Origin: Clostridiales bacterium
GTDB lineage: Bacteria; Bacillota; Clostridia; Christensenellales; Aristaeellaceae
Assembly (NCBI GenBank): GCA_017569285.1
Contig: CP069419.1
Span: forward strand, 1,860,001 to 1,924,000
Reading direction: 5' to 3'
DNA: 64,000 bases
A program made the translations under genes and the position numbers. This document shows, one piece after another, positions 3,324-42,299 of this stretch. A model generated the notes under the pieces. The model ran no database searches. It saw only the letters and a list, made by a program, of their open reading frames with translations, and was not told the DNA's origin. The first letter of the stretch is position 1, and every line of letters begins with the position of its first letter.

Positions 3324-3433
3324 AAAAACCGCCTCGCTCCTTATTTTTTCCGTGTTCCATGGTAAACGTACCGCCTGAAAAAGTCAAGGCGAACAAAAAA
3401 ACAAATGATGCTCAATCCGGGCCTGTGAAAGTA

Positions 3434-20638: not shown

Positions 20639-20861
20639 GGAAAGGGCCTCCTTTTAAATTAATCGTCCTGATGAGACAGGAGTTTTACTGAGAACAAATT
20701 AACAGATGACGGCTTCGGCCTGAAGACCGTAATTCTGTGCATAAATATACAATTCGTCAAAGGGCGGGGGACTCCTGTCAGAAGGATCCTTTCATCTGCG
20801 GGGAATGCTTCCGGCCGGCAGGATCCGGCGTATTTGCCCTTTATTTGTAGAAAACATGTTT
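20639..20861. other. Divergent intergenic region
   Basis: No gene is visible between the E2-like gene (minus) and the S51 peptidase gene (plus). Several short inverted repeats occur, for example around GGATCC at 20787 and 20822. The plus-strand promoter-like motif begins at 20862. Confidence 0.4.
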
Positions 20862-20898
20862 GTTCCCCTTTTCTTTCTCCGGTCCGGCAAGTAAAATG
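20862..20898 (+). promoter_or_regulatory. Promoter-like motif GTTCCCC-N22-GTAAAATG (copy 1)
   Basis: GTTCCCC (20862-20868) and GTAAAATG (20891-20898) are separated by exactly 22 nt, 38 nt before the S51 peptidase start. The same two elements with the same spacing occur at 25945-25981 and 40490-40526. TAAAAT is a plausible -10 box. Confidence 0.65.
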
Positions 20899-20935: not shown

Positions 20936-21496
20936 ATGCGCCTGATGCTGACATCCTGCGGACTGGAAACGGAAAAGATCAAAGGATACTTCCTGGAGAT
21001 GTTGGGGAAGGATCCCTGCCATGCCAAAGCGCTTTTTATCCCGACCGCCGCGATTGACGCGGATGCTGTCGAAGTGCTGCCGAAATGCATGCATGACCTG
21101 CTGAAATGCGGCTTTCCGAAGGAAAACATCCGGGTATATGACCTGCATGCCGATATGCCGGCGGACGAGCTTGGCACTTTTGACGTGGTTTATTTCTGCG
21201 GCGGAAGAACCTCCTACCTGCTGGAGCGGATCAATGATTCCGGTTTCCGGGGAACGCTGCTGAACTATATCCGGGAGGACGGATTTGTGATCGGGGTCAG
21301 CGCGGGGAGTATCATTTTCGCGAACAACCTGCCCGGCAATCTGGGTTTTATTGATACAAAGCTGGATGTCCACTGCGACAGGAGCAGTTTTGCCGGCCGG
21401 GTCACATTCCCGCTGGCGGACAACCTGAAACTTTCGAATACAGCGGCGATGCTGATCCGGAATATCCCGGATGATACGGAAATCATTGATGACTGA
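20936..21496 (+). CDS. Peptidase S51 (dipeptidase E-like)
   Basis: The 186-residue protein begins MRLMLTSCGLETEKI, the typical S51 N terminus, continues with the VYFCGGRTSYLL strand-loop and has the nucleophile elbow GVSAGSI followed by a His in LDVHCDR. It is a little shorter than E. coli PepE (229 residues), mainly at the C terminus, but the catalytic centre is complete. Members cleave Asp-X dipeptides or related peptides in the cytoplasm. AGGAGG lies 7 nt upstream. Its stop overlaps the in-frame ATG of the next frame (TGATG), so the two genes are probably coupled. Confidence 0.88.
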   Translation: MRLMLTSCGLETEKIKGYFLEMLGKDPCHAKALFIPTAAIDADAVEVLPKCMHDLLKCGFPKENIRVYDLHADMPADELGTFDVVYFCGGRTSYLLERINDSGFRGTLLNYIREDGFVIGVSAGSIIFANNLPGNLGFIDTKLDVHCDRSSFAGRVTFPLADNLKLSNTAAMLIRNIPDDTEIIDD

Positions 21497-25912: not shown

Positions 25913-25944
25913 GCGGATGGCCGGACCCGGTGAAAAAAACTTCT

Positions 25945-25981
25945 GTTCCCCTTTCTTCCGCGTGGCGCTCATGGTAAGATG
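25945..25981 (+). promoter_or_regulatory. Promoter-like motif GTTCCCC-N22-GTAAGATG (copy 2)
   Basis: GTTCCCC (25945-25951) and GTAAGATG (25974-25981) are 22 nt apart, 42 nt before the cyclase gene. See the copies at 20862 and 40490. The Nudix gene at 29084 has a related second half (GGTAAGATGAA at 29038) but only a partial first half. Confidence 0.65.
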
Positions 25982-26022: not shown

Positions 26023-26622
26023 ATGAAGATCTATGATATTTCCCAGGAGGTTTTCGGCTGCGCGGTGTTCCCCGGGGATCCGCATCCGGAAAGGGAAATC
26101 AAACTGAGAATCAGCGAAGGCGCCATGTGCAACCTGAGCGCTTTCAGCATGTGCGCGCACAACGGCACCCATGTGGATGCGCCGCTGCATTTTATCGACG
26201 GAACGGAAAGCGTTGACCGGGTGGATCTGGACAAGTTCATCGGGTATGCCTATGTGGCGGAGCATGACGGTCCGGTCCGGGCGGAGGACGCGGAGCGGAT
26301 CCTGGAAACGGCTGCGGCGTTTGATCCCCGGGCCGCGGAAAGGATCCTGGTCAAGGGGAAAGCCACCGTTACGGCGGAAGCAGCCCGGGTTTTTGCGGGC
26401 CGGGGGATCAAACTGTTCGGAAATGAATCCCAGACGGTCGGCCCGGAGGATGCGCCAATGGAAGTGCACCTGATTATGCTCGGGGCAAAGGTCGTCCTGC
26501 TGGAGGGCATCCGCCTGGGGCATGTGCCGGAAGGGGTATATGTCCTGCACGCGGCGCCGCTGAACCTGGGCGGCGCGGAAGGCGCGCCCTGCCGGGCAAC
26601 GCTGATCAGCACCGATCTGTGA
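26023..26622 (+). CDS. Cyclase family protein (kynurenine formamidase-like metal hydrolase)
   Basis: The 199-residue protein has the cyclase/arylformamidase signature HNGTHVDAPLHF (about residues 46-57), whose His and Asp bind the metal, preceded by YDISQEV at the N terminus. It ends with the GAEGAPCRATLI segment usual in the family. Members hydrolyse N-formylkynurenine or act on cyclic amides; the substrate here is open. It begins an operon with the flavin reductase (start 18 nt past the stop) and a GNAT gene. Confidence 0.9.
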   Translation: MKIYDISQEVFGCAVFPGDPHPEREIKLRISEGAMCNLSAFSMCAHNGTHVDAPLHFIDGTESVDRVDLDKFIGYAYVAEHDGPVRAEDAERILETAAAFDPRAAERILVKGKATVTAEAARVFAGRGIKLFGNESQTVGPEDAPMEVHLIMLGAKVVLLEGIRLGHVPEGVYVLHAAPLNLGGAEGAPCRATLISTDL

Positions 26623-26639
26623 AGAAGGGGAGTTTTCAG

Positions 26640-27299
26640 ATGAAATACGCATACCGGGAAATGCCGGAAAACCTGAAAGGAACTTATGCCGATATCTCCA
26701 GGAACTGGGGCTTCTGCTGGAAGGAATTTGTGATGAGTGTGCCGTCGCCGCTGTTCCTGGTAACCACCTATAAATCGAACGGCCTGCCGAATGCGAGCAT
26801 GCAGTCCTGGTCCACGTTCACCTGCGCAAACCGCGGCAGCGGTTACTACGCGCTCCTTGGCAGCGTGAACAAAAACGGCCATCTGTACCGGACACTGCAG
26901 GAAACAAAGGAAGCCGTGATCAATTTCATGTCGGCGGAAGCACATGCCGCCTGTATGGCTACCATCCACAACAATGAATTTGATAAAGATGAGATTGCCG
27001 CATCCGGGCTGACCGCGGAGAAGGCGGACTGGGTGAATGCTCCGACGGTAAAGGAATGCTTTATGAACCTGGAATGCCGGTATGTATGGGAGAAGGAAAT
27101 CGTACCGGGGGATGACCATGTGATAATCTGCCTGGAAGTGCTGGGCGGACACATTGATGAGGAGCACCTGGCGGACCGGATCGGCGAAAACGGCCTCCTG
27201 TACAATATCCACTACCAGATGAATCCCGAGCATCCCGGGAAAACGGGGCATGATTACGCGGCGGTTCTGCAGCGGAAAGTCGATGTCGGGGAATACTGA
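26640..27299 (+). CDS. Flavin reductase family protein (flavoredoxin-like)
   Basis: The 219-residue protein resembles FMN-binding split-barrel flavoredoxins: PSPLFLVTTYKSNGLPNASMQSWSTF and NKNGHLYRTLQETKEAVINF are the flavin-binding parts. Such proteins transfer electrons to or from FMN, sometimes as flavin reductases. ATG 26640 has GGGGAG 8 nt upstream; a GTG at 26619 overlapping the cyclase stop is less likely. Function in this operon is not known. Confidence 0.85.
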   Translation: MKYAYREMPENLKGTYADISRNWGFCWKEFVMSVPSPLFLVTTYKSNGLPNASMQSWSTFTCANRGSGYYALLGSVNKNGHLYRTLQETKEAVINFMSAEAHAACMATIHNNEFDKDEIAASGLTAEKADWVNAPTVKECFMNLECRYVWEKEIVPGDDHVIICLEVLGGHIDEEHLADRIGENGLLYNIHYQMNPEHPGKTGHDYAAVLQRKVDVGEY

Positions 27300-27325
27300 A
27301 TTCAATCGGAAGGCAGCAGGAAAGA

Positions 27326-27784
27326 ATGATCAGCAGGGCAAAGCCTGAACAGGCCGGGGAGATCCACGACGTTGTGGTTTCCACGATATCGGAGATTTAC
27401 CCGAAGTATTACACCAAAGAAGTGGTGGAGTTTTTCATCGGTTACCACAGCCCGGAACGGATCCGGGAGGACATTTCAGCCGGAAAAGTATATATCGCCG
27501 AAGAGAACGGCAGGATCGCCGGCACCGGGACGATTAACGGGGACAATATCGAGCGGGTATATGTGCGGCCGGAGTACCGGGGAAAAGGAATCGGCTCCGC
27601 CCTCATGGATTATATGGAAGGCGAGATCCTGAAGGACCATGAGGCGGTGGTGGTGGAATCCTCCCTGCCGGCCGGAGAGTTCTACCGGAAACGGAAATAT
27701 ATCCAGGTAAAGCATATGGACTATCCCGTCGAAAACGGGAAGATCCTGTGCTATGAGGTGATGCGGAAAACGGGGAAACCGTAA
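27326..27784 (+). CDS. GNAT family N-acetyltransferase
   Basis: The 152-residue protein has the GNAT core IAEENGRIAGTGTINGDNIERVYVRPEYRGKGIGSALMDYM, given here as the order of beta4, beta5 and the acetyl-CoA loop RGKGIG, and the late AGEFYRKRKY element. It follows the flavin reductase by 26 nt with a GGAAGGCAGCAGG region upstream. Substrate unknown. Confidence 0.87.
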   Translation: MISRAKPEQAGEIHDVVVSTISEIYPKYYTKEVVEFFIGYHSPERIREDISAGKVYIAEENGRIAGTGTINGDNIERVYVRPEYRGKGIGSALMDYMEGEILKDHEAVVVESSLPAGEFYRKRKYIQVKHMDYPVENGKILCYEVMRKTGKP

Positions 27785-27872
27785 ACTGGCCCTATTCTTT
27801 TTTCATATTCTGGCTATTTCGTGAAGACCACTTTCGGTTTATACTTCCTTCCTGAAAGCGGTTGTACCGCGG

Positions 27873-27890
27873 CTGTGCGCATGCGCACAG
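27873..27890. promoter_or_regulatory. 18-bp perfect palindrome upstream of the pyridoxal kinase gene
   Basis: CTGTGCGCATGCGCACAG is a perfect palindrome ending 20 nt before the start codon. It is either an operator or a hairpin in the leader that affects access to the ribosome site at 27896-27902. Confidence 0.5.
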
Positions 27891-27910
27891 GAGACAGGGG
27901 GAAGAAACAC

Positions 27911-28753
27911 ATGAAACGGATACTGACCATTCAGGATATCTCCTGCTTCGGGAAATGTTCCCTGACGGTGGCGCTGCCGCTGCTGTCTGCCATGGGAATT
28001 GAAACGGCGATCCTGCCGACCGCTGTGCTCAGCACGCACACGCTGTTCAAGGGCTTCACCTGCAAGGACCTTTCCGACCAGCTGGTGCCCATCACCGACC
28101 ACTGGAAGCGGGAGGGGATCACTTTCGACGCGATCTATACCGGATACCTGGGCACGGAAGAGGAAATCGACACGGTGATCGGCATCATCCGGGAATTCCG
28201 GAATGAGAACACCCTGGTGATCGTGGATCCGGCGATGGGGGACAACGGCCGGCTGTATGCCGCCTTTGACGAGCACTACGCGAAAAAGAACGCGGATCTC
28301 TGCGCGGTGGCGGACATCATTGACCCGAACATTACGGAAGCCGCCTTCATGACCGGGCTGCCGTACCGGGAGGAATATTCTGAAGACTATATCCGGGAGA
28401 TGCTGCTGGCGCTGGCGAAGCTCGGAACGAAAACGCCGATCCTCACCGGGGTTTCCCTGGGGGAAGGCAAAACCGGCGCGATGGGGTATGATTCCGAAAC
28501 GAAGACGTTCTTCAACTACCAGAACGACCGGGTTCCGGCGGCGTACCACGGGACGGGGGATATCTTCTCCAGCGTCCTGGCCGGCGCGTTTGTGCTGGGG
28601 ATCAGCCGGGCAGAGGCCCTGAAGATCGCCGCGGACTACACAGCGCTGACCATTGCGGAAACGCTGAAGAACCCGGGGAACCCCTGGTACGGGGTGGACT
28701 TTGAGGCCACCATTCCGGCACTGGCGGATATGCTGAAGCAGGCCGGGAAATAA
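27911..28753 (+). CDS. Pyridoxal/pyridoxamine kinase (PdxY/PdxK family)
   Basis: The 280-residue ribokinase-fold protein phosphorylates vitamin B6 vitamers with ATP. Marks are the N-terminal IQDISCFGKCSLTVALPLLSAMG region, TGYLGTEEEI, VDPAMGDNGRLY (metal and ATP contacts), and the C-terminal HGTGDIFSSVLAGAF with the catalytic Asp. Length matches the family. The ATG at 27911 has GGGGGA 8 nt upstream; the frame is open 30 codons further, across the palindrome, but without a ribosome site. Confidence 0.92.
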   Translation: MKRILTIQDISCFGKCSLTVALPLLSAMGIETAILPTAVLSTHTLFKGFTCKDLSDQLVPITDHWKREGITFDAIYTGYLGTEEEIDTVIGIIREFRNENTLVIVDPAMGDNGRLYAAFDEHYAKKNADLCAVADIIDPNITEAAFMTGLPYREEYSEDYIREMLLALAKLGTKTPILTGVSLGEGKTGAMGYDSETKTFFNYQNDRVPAAYHGTGDIFSSVLAGAFVLGISRAEALKIAADYTALTIAETLKNPGNPWYGVDFEATIPALADMLKQAGK

Positions 28754-28990: not shown

Positions 28991-29026
28991 AAGGGCATCC
29001 CGGAGCGGGGTGCCCTTTCCTTTTCC
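28991..29026 (+). terminator. Intrinsic terminator after the kinase operon
   Basis: AAGGGCA (28991-28997) pairs with TGCCCTT (29011-29017), extended by CCC/GGG inside, and is followed by a T-rich tract. Confidence 0.75.
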
Positions 29027-29083
29027 TGCCGCTTCATGGTAAGATGAATCCCGGAGACCGTTCCAAAAAGGAGGAATGCATGC

Positions 29084-40474: not shown

Positions 40475-40489
40475 GCCCGGAAAACGTTT

Positions 40490-40526
40490 GTTCCCCTTTC
40501 TATTCAGGGAGTTCCATAGTAAAATG
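40490..40526 (+). promoter_or_regulatory. Promoter-like motif GTTCCCC-N22-GTAAAATG (copy 3)
   Basis: GTTCCCC (40490-40496) and GTAAAATG (40519-40526), 22 nt apart, 32 nt before the ATPase gene. Same arrangement as at 20862 and 25945, and all three copies are preceded by an A-rich GAAAA stretch. Confidence 0.65.
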
Positions 40527-40557: not shown

Positions 40558-41421
40558 TTGTACCTGAGCGCGTTTTACTTTCCGGGAGAAGAAGCAGAAT
40601 CTGATTTCATGTTCGGGCTGAAAACCACTTATGACCAGTCCGTTTATCCGTACGGCATCCTGCCGAAAGTCGGATTGAATGAAATCCTTTTCCGGCCGGT
40701 AACCATCCTCTACGGCGGGAACGGAAGCGGAAAAAGCACCGCCCTGAATGTGATTGCCGAAAAGCTGCGCCTTACGCGGAACAGCGCGTATAACCGCTCC
40801 CGCTTCTTTGAGAATTTTGTGGACCGTTGCTCGGTAACGCTGGAGGAAGCGGTTCCGAAAAACAGCCGCATCATTACCAGCGATGACGTTTTCGATATGA
40901 TGCTGGATATCCGTACCATCAATGAGGGCATCGACCGGAAACGCTCAGATCTTTCAGATGAATATTTCAGCCTGAAGCATGAGAAGTTTCAGCTCAAATC
41001 ACTGGACGACCTGGAACACCTGCAGAAGATCAACCAGGCAAGGAGCAAAACCCTGAGCCGGTTTGTGGCCAAAGAATCCGGGGACAGCATCCGGGAACGG
41101 TCCAACGGGGAAAACGCGCTGATATTCTTCCAGGGCAAGATTGAAATGGATACCCTCTGCCTGCTGGACGAACCGGAGAACAGCCTGAGCCCGGAGAACC
41201 AGATGATCCTCGCGGATTTCCTGATGGATTCCGTGCGGTACTGCGGCAACCAGCTGGTCATCAGCACCCATTCCCCGTTCCTGCTGGCGTTCCCGGGGGC
41301 GAAAATCATCAACCTGGATGATCATTCCCGGGTGGCGGACAGCTGGACGCAGCTGAAGAACCCGCGGGTTTACTATGAGTTTTTCAAAAAGCACGCAGAT
41401 GAGTTTGAACAGGAGCAGTAA
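40558..41421 (+). CDS. Stand-alone AAA/ABC-type ATPase
   Basis: The 287-residue protein has Walker A YGGNGSGKSTALN (about residues 54-66), an ABC-like signature ERSNGENAL, Walker B LCLLDEPENSLSP and the switch STHSPFLLA. It therefore belongs to the ABC-type ATPases related to SMC/OLD-like predicted ATP-binding proteins, without a membrane partner. A TTG start at 40558 is used: AAAGGGGG lies 6 nt upstream and it gives the full N-terminal strand. The radical SAM gene begins 5 nt after its stop, so the two are co-expressed. Confidence 0.85.
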   Translation: MYLSAFYFPGEEAESDFMFGLKTTYDQSVYPYGILPKVGLNEILFRPVTILYGGNGSGKSTALNVIAEKLRLTRNSAYNRSRFFENFVDRCSVTLEEAVPKNSRIITSDDVFDMMLDIRTINEGIDRKRSDLSDEYFSLKHEKFQLKSLDDLEHLQKINQARSKTLSRFVAKESGDSIRERSNGENALIFFQGKIEMDTLCLLDEPENSLSPENQMILADFLMDSVRYCGNQLVISTHSPFLLAFPGAKIINLDDHSRVADSWTQLKNPRVYYEFFKKHADEFEQEQ

Positions 41422-41426
41422 CGCAG

Positions 41427-42299
41427 ATGCATTTTGTGGATGCGAAGGGAATCCTGACCGGCGGAAAGGGCCGCTACGGGATGAATATCTACCGCGGGTG
41501 CTCCCACGGGTGTATTTACTGTGACAGCCGCAGCCGGTGCTACCAGTTTACCCACGCGTTTGAGGATATCGAGGTAAAGCGGAACGCGCCGGAACTGCTG
41601 GAGCAGGCCCTGCGCTCCAAACGGGAAAAGTGCATGATCGGAACAGGATCCATGTCGGATCCGTACATGCACTGCGAGGAAAAGCTCGGCCTGACGCGGC
41701 AATGCCTGGAGATTATCTGCCGATACGGGTTCGGCGCAGCGGTGCAGACCAAATCCGACCGGATCCTGCGGGATATCGATCTCCTGGAGGAGATCAACCG
41801 GAAAGCCAAATGCGTGGTCCAGGTCACACTGACCACCTGGGACGATCAGCTGTGCGGGATCCTGGAACCGAATGTGTGCAATACCCGGCGGCGCGTGGAA
41901 GTGCTGGAGGAGATGCGGAAACGCGGGATTCCCACGGTTGTGTGGCTCACACCCATCCTTCCGTTCATCAACGACACGGAGGAAAACGTCCGGGCCATCC
42001 TGGAGGCCTGCGCGCAGGTACAGGTGAAAGGAATCATCTGCTTCGACATGGGGCTGACCCTTCGGGAAGGGGACCGGGAATACTATTACGCGGCGCTGGA
42101 CCGGCACTTCCCCGGACTGAAGGAGAAGTATATCCGCACCTACGGGAATGCCTATGAGCTTCCCAGCCCGGACAGCGCAAAGCTGATGAACCTGTTCCGG
42201 TCCTTCTGCCGGGAGCACGGCATCCTGTACCGGCCGGATGACTGCTTCAGCTATATGCAGGAGTTTCCGGAAAAGTATCAGCAGATCTCATTTCTGTAA
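41427..42299 (+). CDS. Radical SAM protein of the spore photoproduct lyase-like (SplB) group
   Basis: The 290-residue protein has the radical SAM motif CSHGCIYCDSR (CxxxCxxC, about residues 26-33) after GRYGMNIYRG, the GTGSMSDPYMHCEEKLGLTR segment typical of the SplB/Rv2578c-like group, and QTKSDRILRDIDLL. Such proteins occur outside spore formers and their substrate is mostly unknown; DNA photoproduct repair is possible but not shown. It follows the ATPase gene by 5 nt. Confidence 0.88.
   Translation: MHFVDAKGILTGGKGRYGMNIYRGCSHGCIYCDSRSRCYQFTHAFEDIEVKRNAPELLEQALRSKREKCMIGTGSMSDPYMHCEEKLGLTRQCLEIICRYGFGAAVQTKSDRILRDIDLLEEINRKAKCVVQVTLTTWDDQLCGILEPNVCNTRRRVEVLEEMRKRGIPTVVWLTPILPFINDTEENVRAILEACAQVQVKGIICFDMGLTLREGDREYYYAALDRHFPGLKEKYIRTYGNAYELPSPDSAKLMNLFRSFCREHGILYRPDDCFSYMQEFPEKYQQISFL

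Follow-up and report, generated by a model that had tools for sequence, protein, structure and literature searches.

Promoter copies in the window and the genes behind them

The window, i.e. the whole stretch of 64,000 nucleotides that was analysed, corresponds to C1:1860001-1924000 of a clostridial genome of 3,265,326 bases (G000, the source genome). Three sets of genes on its plus strand are preceded by the same promoter-like arrangement. At the first of them a TGTTCCCC box (20861..20868), with an A-tract and a T-tract just upstream, is followed by a -35 slot reading TTTTCT (20869..20874, 17 nt before the -10) and by the -10 element TAAAAT (20892..20897); the gene behind it codes for a Peptidase_S51 family protein of 186 aa (20936..21496), and a glycoside hydrolase 88 gene comes next. 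The box is also present at the S51 genes of G002, G021, G027 and G001 (L135, L140, L143, L159). The second copy (TGTTCCCC at 25944..25951, -35 slot TTTCTT at 25952..25957, -10 TAAGAT at 25975..25980) is kept in G006 (L029/L094) and precedes what is probably one operon, 26023..28753, with genes for an arylformamidase-like cyclase, a flavin reductase, a GNAT protein and a PfkB-type kinase. The third, kept in G006 as well (L005), consists of TGTTCCCC at 40489..40496, a -35 slot TTTCTA at 40497..40502 and a -10 TAAAAT at 40520..40525, and lies in front of genes for an AAA ATPase with a TTG start and a radical SAM protein (40558..42299). The latter (window positions 41427-42299) resembles the PA0069/Rv2578c family (3.6e-41, below the family cut-off), and a damage box, as proposed below, before such a gene makes a repair role worth considering.

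The first-pass annotation of this DNA had described the three copies as GTTCCCC-N22-GTAARATG, standing 30-45 nt before unrelated genes. A pattern check of the window located them at 20862-20898, 25945-25981 and 40490-40526, each with a gap of exactly 22 nt. Their number is beyond chance (the window holds three exact matches, and 100 dinucleotide-shuffled versions of it gave 0.00 on average), and a scan of the whole genome gave the same three matches, all within the window, with none for the reversed pattern used as control and none when the gap was made one base shorter. The start codons lie 38, 42 and 32 nt beyond the end of GTAARATG, and the remark that no normal -35 element is present was a fair one in view of the TTTTCT, TTTCTT and TTTCTA found 17 nt before TAARAT.

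Two other sites in the window are related to these copies. One, missing from the earlier annotation, is a TGTTCGCC box on the minus strand (3388..3395) before ruvC, followed by a -35 reading TTGACT and a -10 reading TACCAT (whole model match, 3353-3401); the identity of RuvC comes from Pfam, on a relative's gene, and the site is one of those used to train model R1 (see below). The other is a weak plus-strand site before a Nudix gene (29008..29051), with GGTGCCC in place of TGTTCCCC and the same -10 spacing. It had been thought to carry the second half of the pattern only; the copy at 29010 has two mismatches, its first half being GTGCCCT, and is devoid of the TGTTC core. Membership of the Nudix-gene site in the promoter class is doubtful, and its score is not independent because it is among the 10 training sites of R1. 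Five of the 13 sites in the source genome (ruvC, S51, cyclase, weak Nudix, AAA) lie within 37 kb (window 3353-40530), a clustering obtained in 23 of 200000 draws under random placement. In G001, G027 and G029, four sites each are found near one another on one contig.

A promoter class with a fixed geometry

The sites belong to a promoter class, AAA-N4-TTTGTTCSCC-TTkNNN-N17-TAnnAT, in which the box, the -35 slot, 17 nt and the -10 follow one another in this order; since the -35 slot directly follows the box, the latter occupies about -43 to -36, immediately ahead of the -35. The consensus of 92 non-redundant sites from the genus was AAA-N4-TTTGTTCSCCTTkNNWTT-N15-TAnnAT, with a spacer of 17 in 86 sites and of 18 in 6, in a set itself selected for a spacing of 16-18. 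Unbiased evidence on spacing is therefore confined to the 34 distinct matches of the 10-mer TGTTCSCCTT in the source genome, as the other site sets require or favour the -10 spacing. Searched with no -10 required, this 10-mer gave 36 matches, against 25 for the reversed control. Among the 34 distinct ones, TAnnnT occurs at offset 31 in nine cases and at offset 32 in two, and at every other offset between 20 and 59 in 0-3. A subset of the TGTTCSCCTT matches are thus promoters of one geometry, and the clustering of TAnnnT at a single offset bears out the earlier suggestion that TAARAT is a -10 box.

The -35 slots of further members read TTGACT (ruvC), TTGCAA (rpsF, helicase), TTGTGT (recA) and TTGAGT (Y1 transposase). 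In 17 recA promoters from genomes with the gene pair described below, conservation reached at least 94% in AA (-8,-7), TTTGTTCCCCTTG, a T-tract (13-16), G29 and TA..AT. Matches to TGTTCCCCTTTC-N18-GTAARATG with up to three mismatches were found in 26 of 45 genus genomes, 74 in total against 19 for the reversed control. The idea of a palindromic LexA box was discarded: across the 92 sites there is no GAAC left half, and only the A- and T-tracts are symmetric.

The box-bearing genes

In the source genome, sites combining the 10-mer with a fitting -10 lie before recA, ruvC, a DEAD helicase gene, rpsF, gyrB, a RidA-like gene, a Y1 transposase gene and an XRE-S24 operon, the list being completed by the three promoters of the window. 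Model R1, a sequence-only model built from 10 source-genome sites, gave 12 matches there at E <=5.3e-4: ten are the training sites, and the new ones lie at gyrB, a site that had already appeared in the TGTTCSCCTT search, and at a KilA-N gene. The XRE-S24 operon promoter, with a spacer of 18, was absent from the R1 list for this genome even at E 10. The genus set comprises metagenome-assembled Clostridia, several of them from goat or sheep gut; at a threshold of 0.02, R1 matches were obtained in 31 of its 45 genomes, and in 23 there were at least four sites. A wider spread was sought in a broader collection of genome contigs, and the 14 loci obtained all appear to lie within genus genomes already in the set.

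Downstream genes were compared at 89 loci (six from the source genome), which are a selection among the matches listed, with 60 regions picked by hand and near-copies in G007/G031 mostly skipped; gene families were assigned on representatives of downstream-gene clusters. The genes behind these promoters were recA (15), helicase (13), rpsF (7), ruvC (7), gyrB (6), rarA/MgsA (6), RidA-like (4), S51 (4), YpsA-like (3), KilA-N (2), recQ (2) and 20 singles. The latter include genes for a Y-family polymerase and for AlkZ-like, AAA ATPase and YhcG-type proteins, and for about a dozen of the 20 no link with repair is apparent. The site at L119, before a methyltransferase-like gene, was not counted, being devoid of TGTTC and not a match of R1 itself.

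That the bulk of the box-bearing genes make up a DNA-damage (SOS-like) regulon is well supported: the box is found at recA and at further repair genes both in the source genome and at the genus loci. Two caveats apply to this gene set, namely that gyrB and rpsF have housekeeping functions too and that the ruvC -35, TTGACT, would be adequate without an activator. The first-pass annotation had proposed shared control by a regulon not obvious from gene function. The sites do form one promoter class; what had not been foreseen is that the genome search shows DNA-damage genes (recA, ruvC and others) in the set, so that its logic becomes clear. The S51 peptidase, cyclase and AAA/radical SAM genes, otherwise unrelated, are accordingly candidate damage-response genes.

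An operon with an XRE-S24 protein and a LexA winged helix

In the source genome, LexA over the family cut-off (110.95 bits) was not found, and three partial matches were obtained. A two-gene operon at C1:3236.4-3237.5 kb contains an XRE-S24 gene (275 aa) that overlaps by 4 bp with a gene for an 89-aa protein. The XRE-S24 protein is made up of HTH_3 and Peptidase_S24, and its self-cleavage residues (Ala-Gly, Ser, Lys) are invariant in 19 sequences. The small protein, hereafter mini-LexA, matches Pfam LexA_DNA_bind (2e-8), has no S24 domain and is, according to domain and fold searches, a LexA winged helix alone: the best PDB matches of its AlphaFold model (pLDDT 81) in the fold search were LexA 3k2z (3e-4) and 3jso. 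A PDB profile search with the mini-LexA alignment returned no hits at 0.001. Mini-LexA also matches PHROG 3502 at 3e-11; a viral origin was considered and dropped after an IMG/VR scan found no relative. A second XRE-S24 gene is present in the source genome (L072, G000:C1:489500-495500), with no winged-helix partner seen alongside, and a protein similar to it in sequence exists in G037 (L230), a genome without the pair.

In all 19 operon promoters of the genus, TTTACA is followed by the palindrome AGCACAA-N5-TTGTGCT, exact in 14 of them and slightly altered in the others, and this by the -10. When eight of the 19 pair genomes were searched for it with up to one mismatch, G000, G006, G008, G012 and G029 had it at one place only, the operon promoter; there were four places in G001, three in G002 and none in G032. 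Since it is confined to the operon promoter in those five genomes, the palindrome is probably the auto-operator of XRE-S24, predicted to be the only one there. Just upstream of the operon promoter a TGTTCCYC box lies in 8 of the 19 pair genomes and is missing in 11. The palindrome was also seen in L283 (G001) and L019 (G030), ahead of small genes that resemble each other in sequence, and in L019 it is combined with TGTTCCCC at one promoter. In the pair-less genomes G044, G014, G033, G028 and G013 (L259, L245, L247, L255, L257), A/T-rich dyads such as CACAAAAATATTGTG, which much resemble the XRE-S24 palindrome, are found upstream of the recA -35, and an XRE-S24 protein may act directly on recA in these five.

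Co-occurrence of the operon and the box

The XRE-S24/winged-helix pair was found by family search in 19 of the 45 genus genomes, including G004, where a motif-based search missed the small gene. At least four sites were counted in each of the 19 pair genomes, versus 4 of the 26 without the pair (Fisher 4e-9, ignoring kinship), and the pair was seen in none of the 22 genomes with three sites or fewer. The pair-less genomes with at least four sites (G020, G021, G035, G038) are each 60-70% complete; G016, 73% complete and without the pair, has three sites, none of them at recA. The recA gene was found in 38 genomes, of which G017 was left out because it has no recognised start; the box was present at recA in all 19 pair genomes versus 3 of the 18 others (Fisher 9e-8, again ignoring kinship), G026 being counted as positive in the form TGTTCCAC. 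A recA tree was built with 36 of the 38 genomes, and the doubtful, incomplete G021, G035 and G038 were set aside. The box and pair traits agree in 33 of the 33 rows thus obtained, with four changes or contrasts on the best tree and only one independent contrast on well-supported branches.

Full-length LexA over the cut-off was detected in 12 of the 45 genomes, eight of which are pair genomes (G004, G008, G012, G019, G026, G027, G032 and G043; e.g. L182, L183, L184). This weighs against a simple replacement of LexA, and the classical protein may be sharing the work in those eight genomes.

A possible damage relay

From the evidence, all of it comparative, we infer mini-LexA as the protein that binds the box, activation as the outcome, and both self-cleavage and palindrome binding by XRE-S24. 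Taken together, we lean, with a little better than even confidence, to the view that the motif acts as control box for a DNA-damage regulon at ordinary sigma-A-type promoters, and that removal of the S24 protein would allow mini-LexA to be made and to activate the box promoters. The XRE-HTH/S24 protein would repress its own operon via AGCACAA-N5-TTGTGCT in the -35/-10 spacer; upon DNA damage it would cleave itself, in a RecA-dependent manner by analogy, and the second gene, coding for the 89-aa protein with a LexA-type winged helix alone, would then be expressed. Mini-LexA, bound to TTTGTTCSCC (about -43 to -36), would work as a class II activator that raises expression of recA, ruvC, the helicase gene, rpsF and gyrB, along with the three transcripts of the window; in the eight pair genomes with a box at the operon's own promoter, this promoter would be part of the set too. 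The scheme builds on features observed directly: the motif at its constant position, the set of genes, the operon with its palindrome, and the joint occurrence of motif and operon. A relay with a LexA-domain activator would fit the S24 guard, the adjoining LexA domain and a GTTC box that is one-sided and keeps the same position in front of many repair genes. A repressor role for mini-LexA is disfavoured because its level would rise on loss of the S24 protein, shutting the repair genes off on damage.

Relief of repression through cleavage has its textbook example in the SOS response. Whether LexA has here been taken apart, with an XRE-S24 sensor standing guard over chiefly one promoter and the LexA DNA-binding domain set free to activate the host SOS regulon, is a question on which we are nearly evenly divided, inclining slightly to doubt. 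If true, it would amount to a chromosomal SOS cascade with positive control in two steps, and to our knowledge no host regulon is run by a split-LexA relay. Such a relay would delay the response, would alter its reversibility as well as its dose response, and would be an example of a repressor domain converted into an activator.

Comparison with known systems and alternative readers of the box

The Gram-positive LexA SOS regulon includes recA, ruvC and a Y-family polymerase gene, under operators of the GAAC-N4-GTTC type. The set described here shares these three genes, a LexA-type winged helix and the GTTC in the box; it differs in that the source genome is without full-length LexA above the cut-off, that a single non-palindromic box occupies a fixed place, and that the sensor and the presumed DNA reader are separate proteins. 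We found no literature joining the rumen, a LexA/RecA SOS regulon and a binding motif. In the literature searched, the nearest precedent is gp6 of phage GIL01 (PMC6182141), described as a truncated LexA homologue with a class II-type activator site centred at -43.5, overlapping the -35, and made only after DNA damage removes an S24 repressor; it serves one phage late promoter through a palindromic site, GaCACAn nTGTGaC. Both cases have a stand-alone LexA DNA-binding domain and a fixed site abutting or overlapping the -35, mini-LexA being the predicted binder here. Unlike that of gp6, the mini-LexA gene is chromosomal and sits beside the S24 gene, and the box is non-palindromic and lies before many host repair genes. 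Because the gp6 site is palindromic and serves a single phage promoter, we claim likeness rather than membership, and the symmetry of the gp6 site, which TGTTCSCC lacks, is a point against the mini-LexA model.

It is unlikely that TGTTCSCC is bound and the promoters repressed by XRE-S24 itself, in the manner of HdiR, or by XRE-S24 joined to mini-LexA, with damage simply lifting the repression. The two genes adjoin and both co-occur with the box, S24 repressors replace LexA elsewhere, as in the cases of HdiR (PMC8565304) and FddR (PMC13148647), and GIL01 pairs LexA with a small partner, gp7 (PMC6182141). HdiR, the Bacteroidetes S24 regulators and FddR also resemble XRE-S24 in joining S24 to a phage-repressor-like HTH and in having a palindrome at their own promoter; as those accounts present them, however, they act directly on their targets (PMC8565304, PMC13148647), whereas the palindrome described above is limited to the operon in five of the eight genomes searched. 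The near-perfect palindrome at the auto-operator position (exact in 14 of 19) is unlike TGTTCSCC, and in the source genome it occurs at a single place with up to one mismatch, hence not at the other TGTTCSCC promoters. This palindrome of its own makes XRE-S24 improbable as the direct reader of the box, and a repressor needs no single fixed distance to the -10.

Another regulator of the clade might bind the box, perhaps full-length LexA in some genomes, the operon being a fellow traveller. The co-occurrence of pair and box is partly phylogenetic, the search for regulators covered LexA-type families plus, in the source genome only, WYL proteins, and 8 of the 19 pair genomes have LexA over the cut-off. 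Yet the source genome has the box and no such LexA, and the pair-less G009, G023, G025 and G033 have full-length LexA over the cut-off and no R1 site, which argues against LexA as the reader. In addition, within the pair-genome clade, G009, G010, G022 and G024 have recA promoters that have lost TGTTC and retain CCTT and the -10. We thus regard such a regulator as improbable and keep mini-LexA as the favoured candidate.

PafBC and DriD are damage-responsive activators, and a WYL-domain protein of their kind would share with the system proposed here the damage genes, the inferred activation and a motif built into the promoter, that of mycobacteria, tTGTCRgtg-N8-TannnT, likewise lying upstream of the -10 (PMC5656591). 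They are WYL proteins with another motif and another spacing, the distance from box to -10 being 23 nt here versus 8 in the mycobacterial motif. WYL proteins are encoded at two loci of the source genome. At one of them, L074 (G000:C1:2427000-2435000), two overlapping WYL/WCX regulator genes lie near a DUF2828/DUF7788 gene. This neighbourhood suggests a local role, and WYL genes were set aside as the regulator; that such a protein drives the box promoters is very unlikely.

The first-pass annotation had left the choice between an alternative sigma factor and a shared activator open. The activator is the more likely of the two, because the box precedes a -35 slot in which some members have TTGACT, TTGCAA or TTGAGT. 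Sigma-70-type spacers are shorter than 26 nt, the distance that would separate TTGTTC from TAARAT, so that a sigma factor reading GTTCCCC as a -35 is hardly credible in spite of the strict spacing and the weak -35 slots of the three window copies, given also that the slot 17 nt from the -10 at other members, recA with its TTGTGT included, is of the TTG type.

A different arrangement was noticed at L064 (G000:C1:3094230-3097239), which has no -10 at the right spacing and was rejected as a member and left out of the training of R1. There, two inverted copies of TGTTCCCCTT (TGTTCCCC) surround a hairpin followed by T's, with a gene downstream that by eye is mraZ-like.
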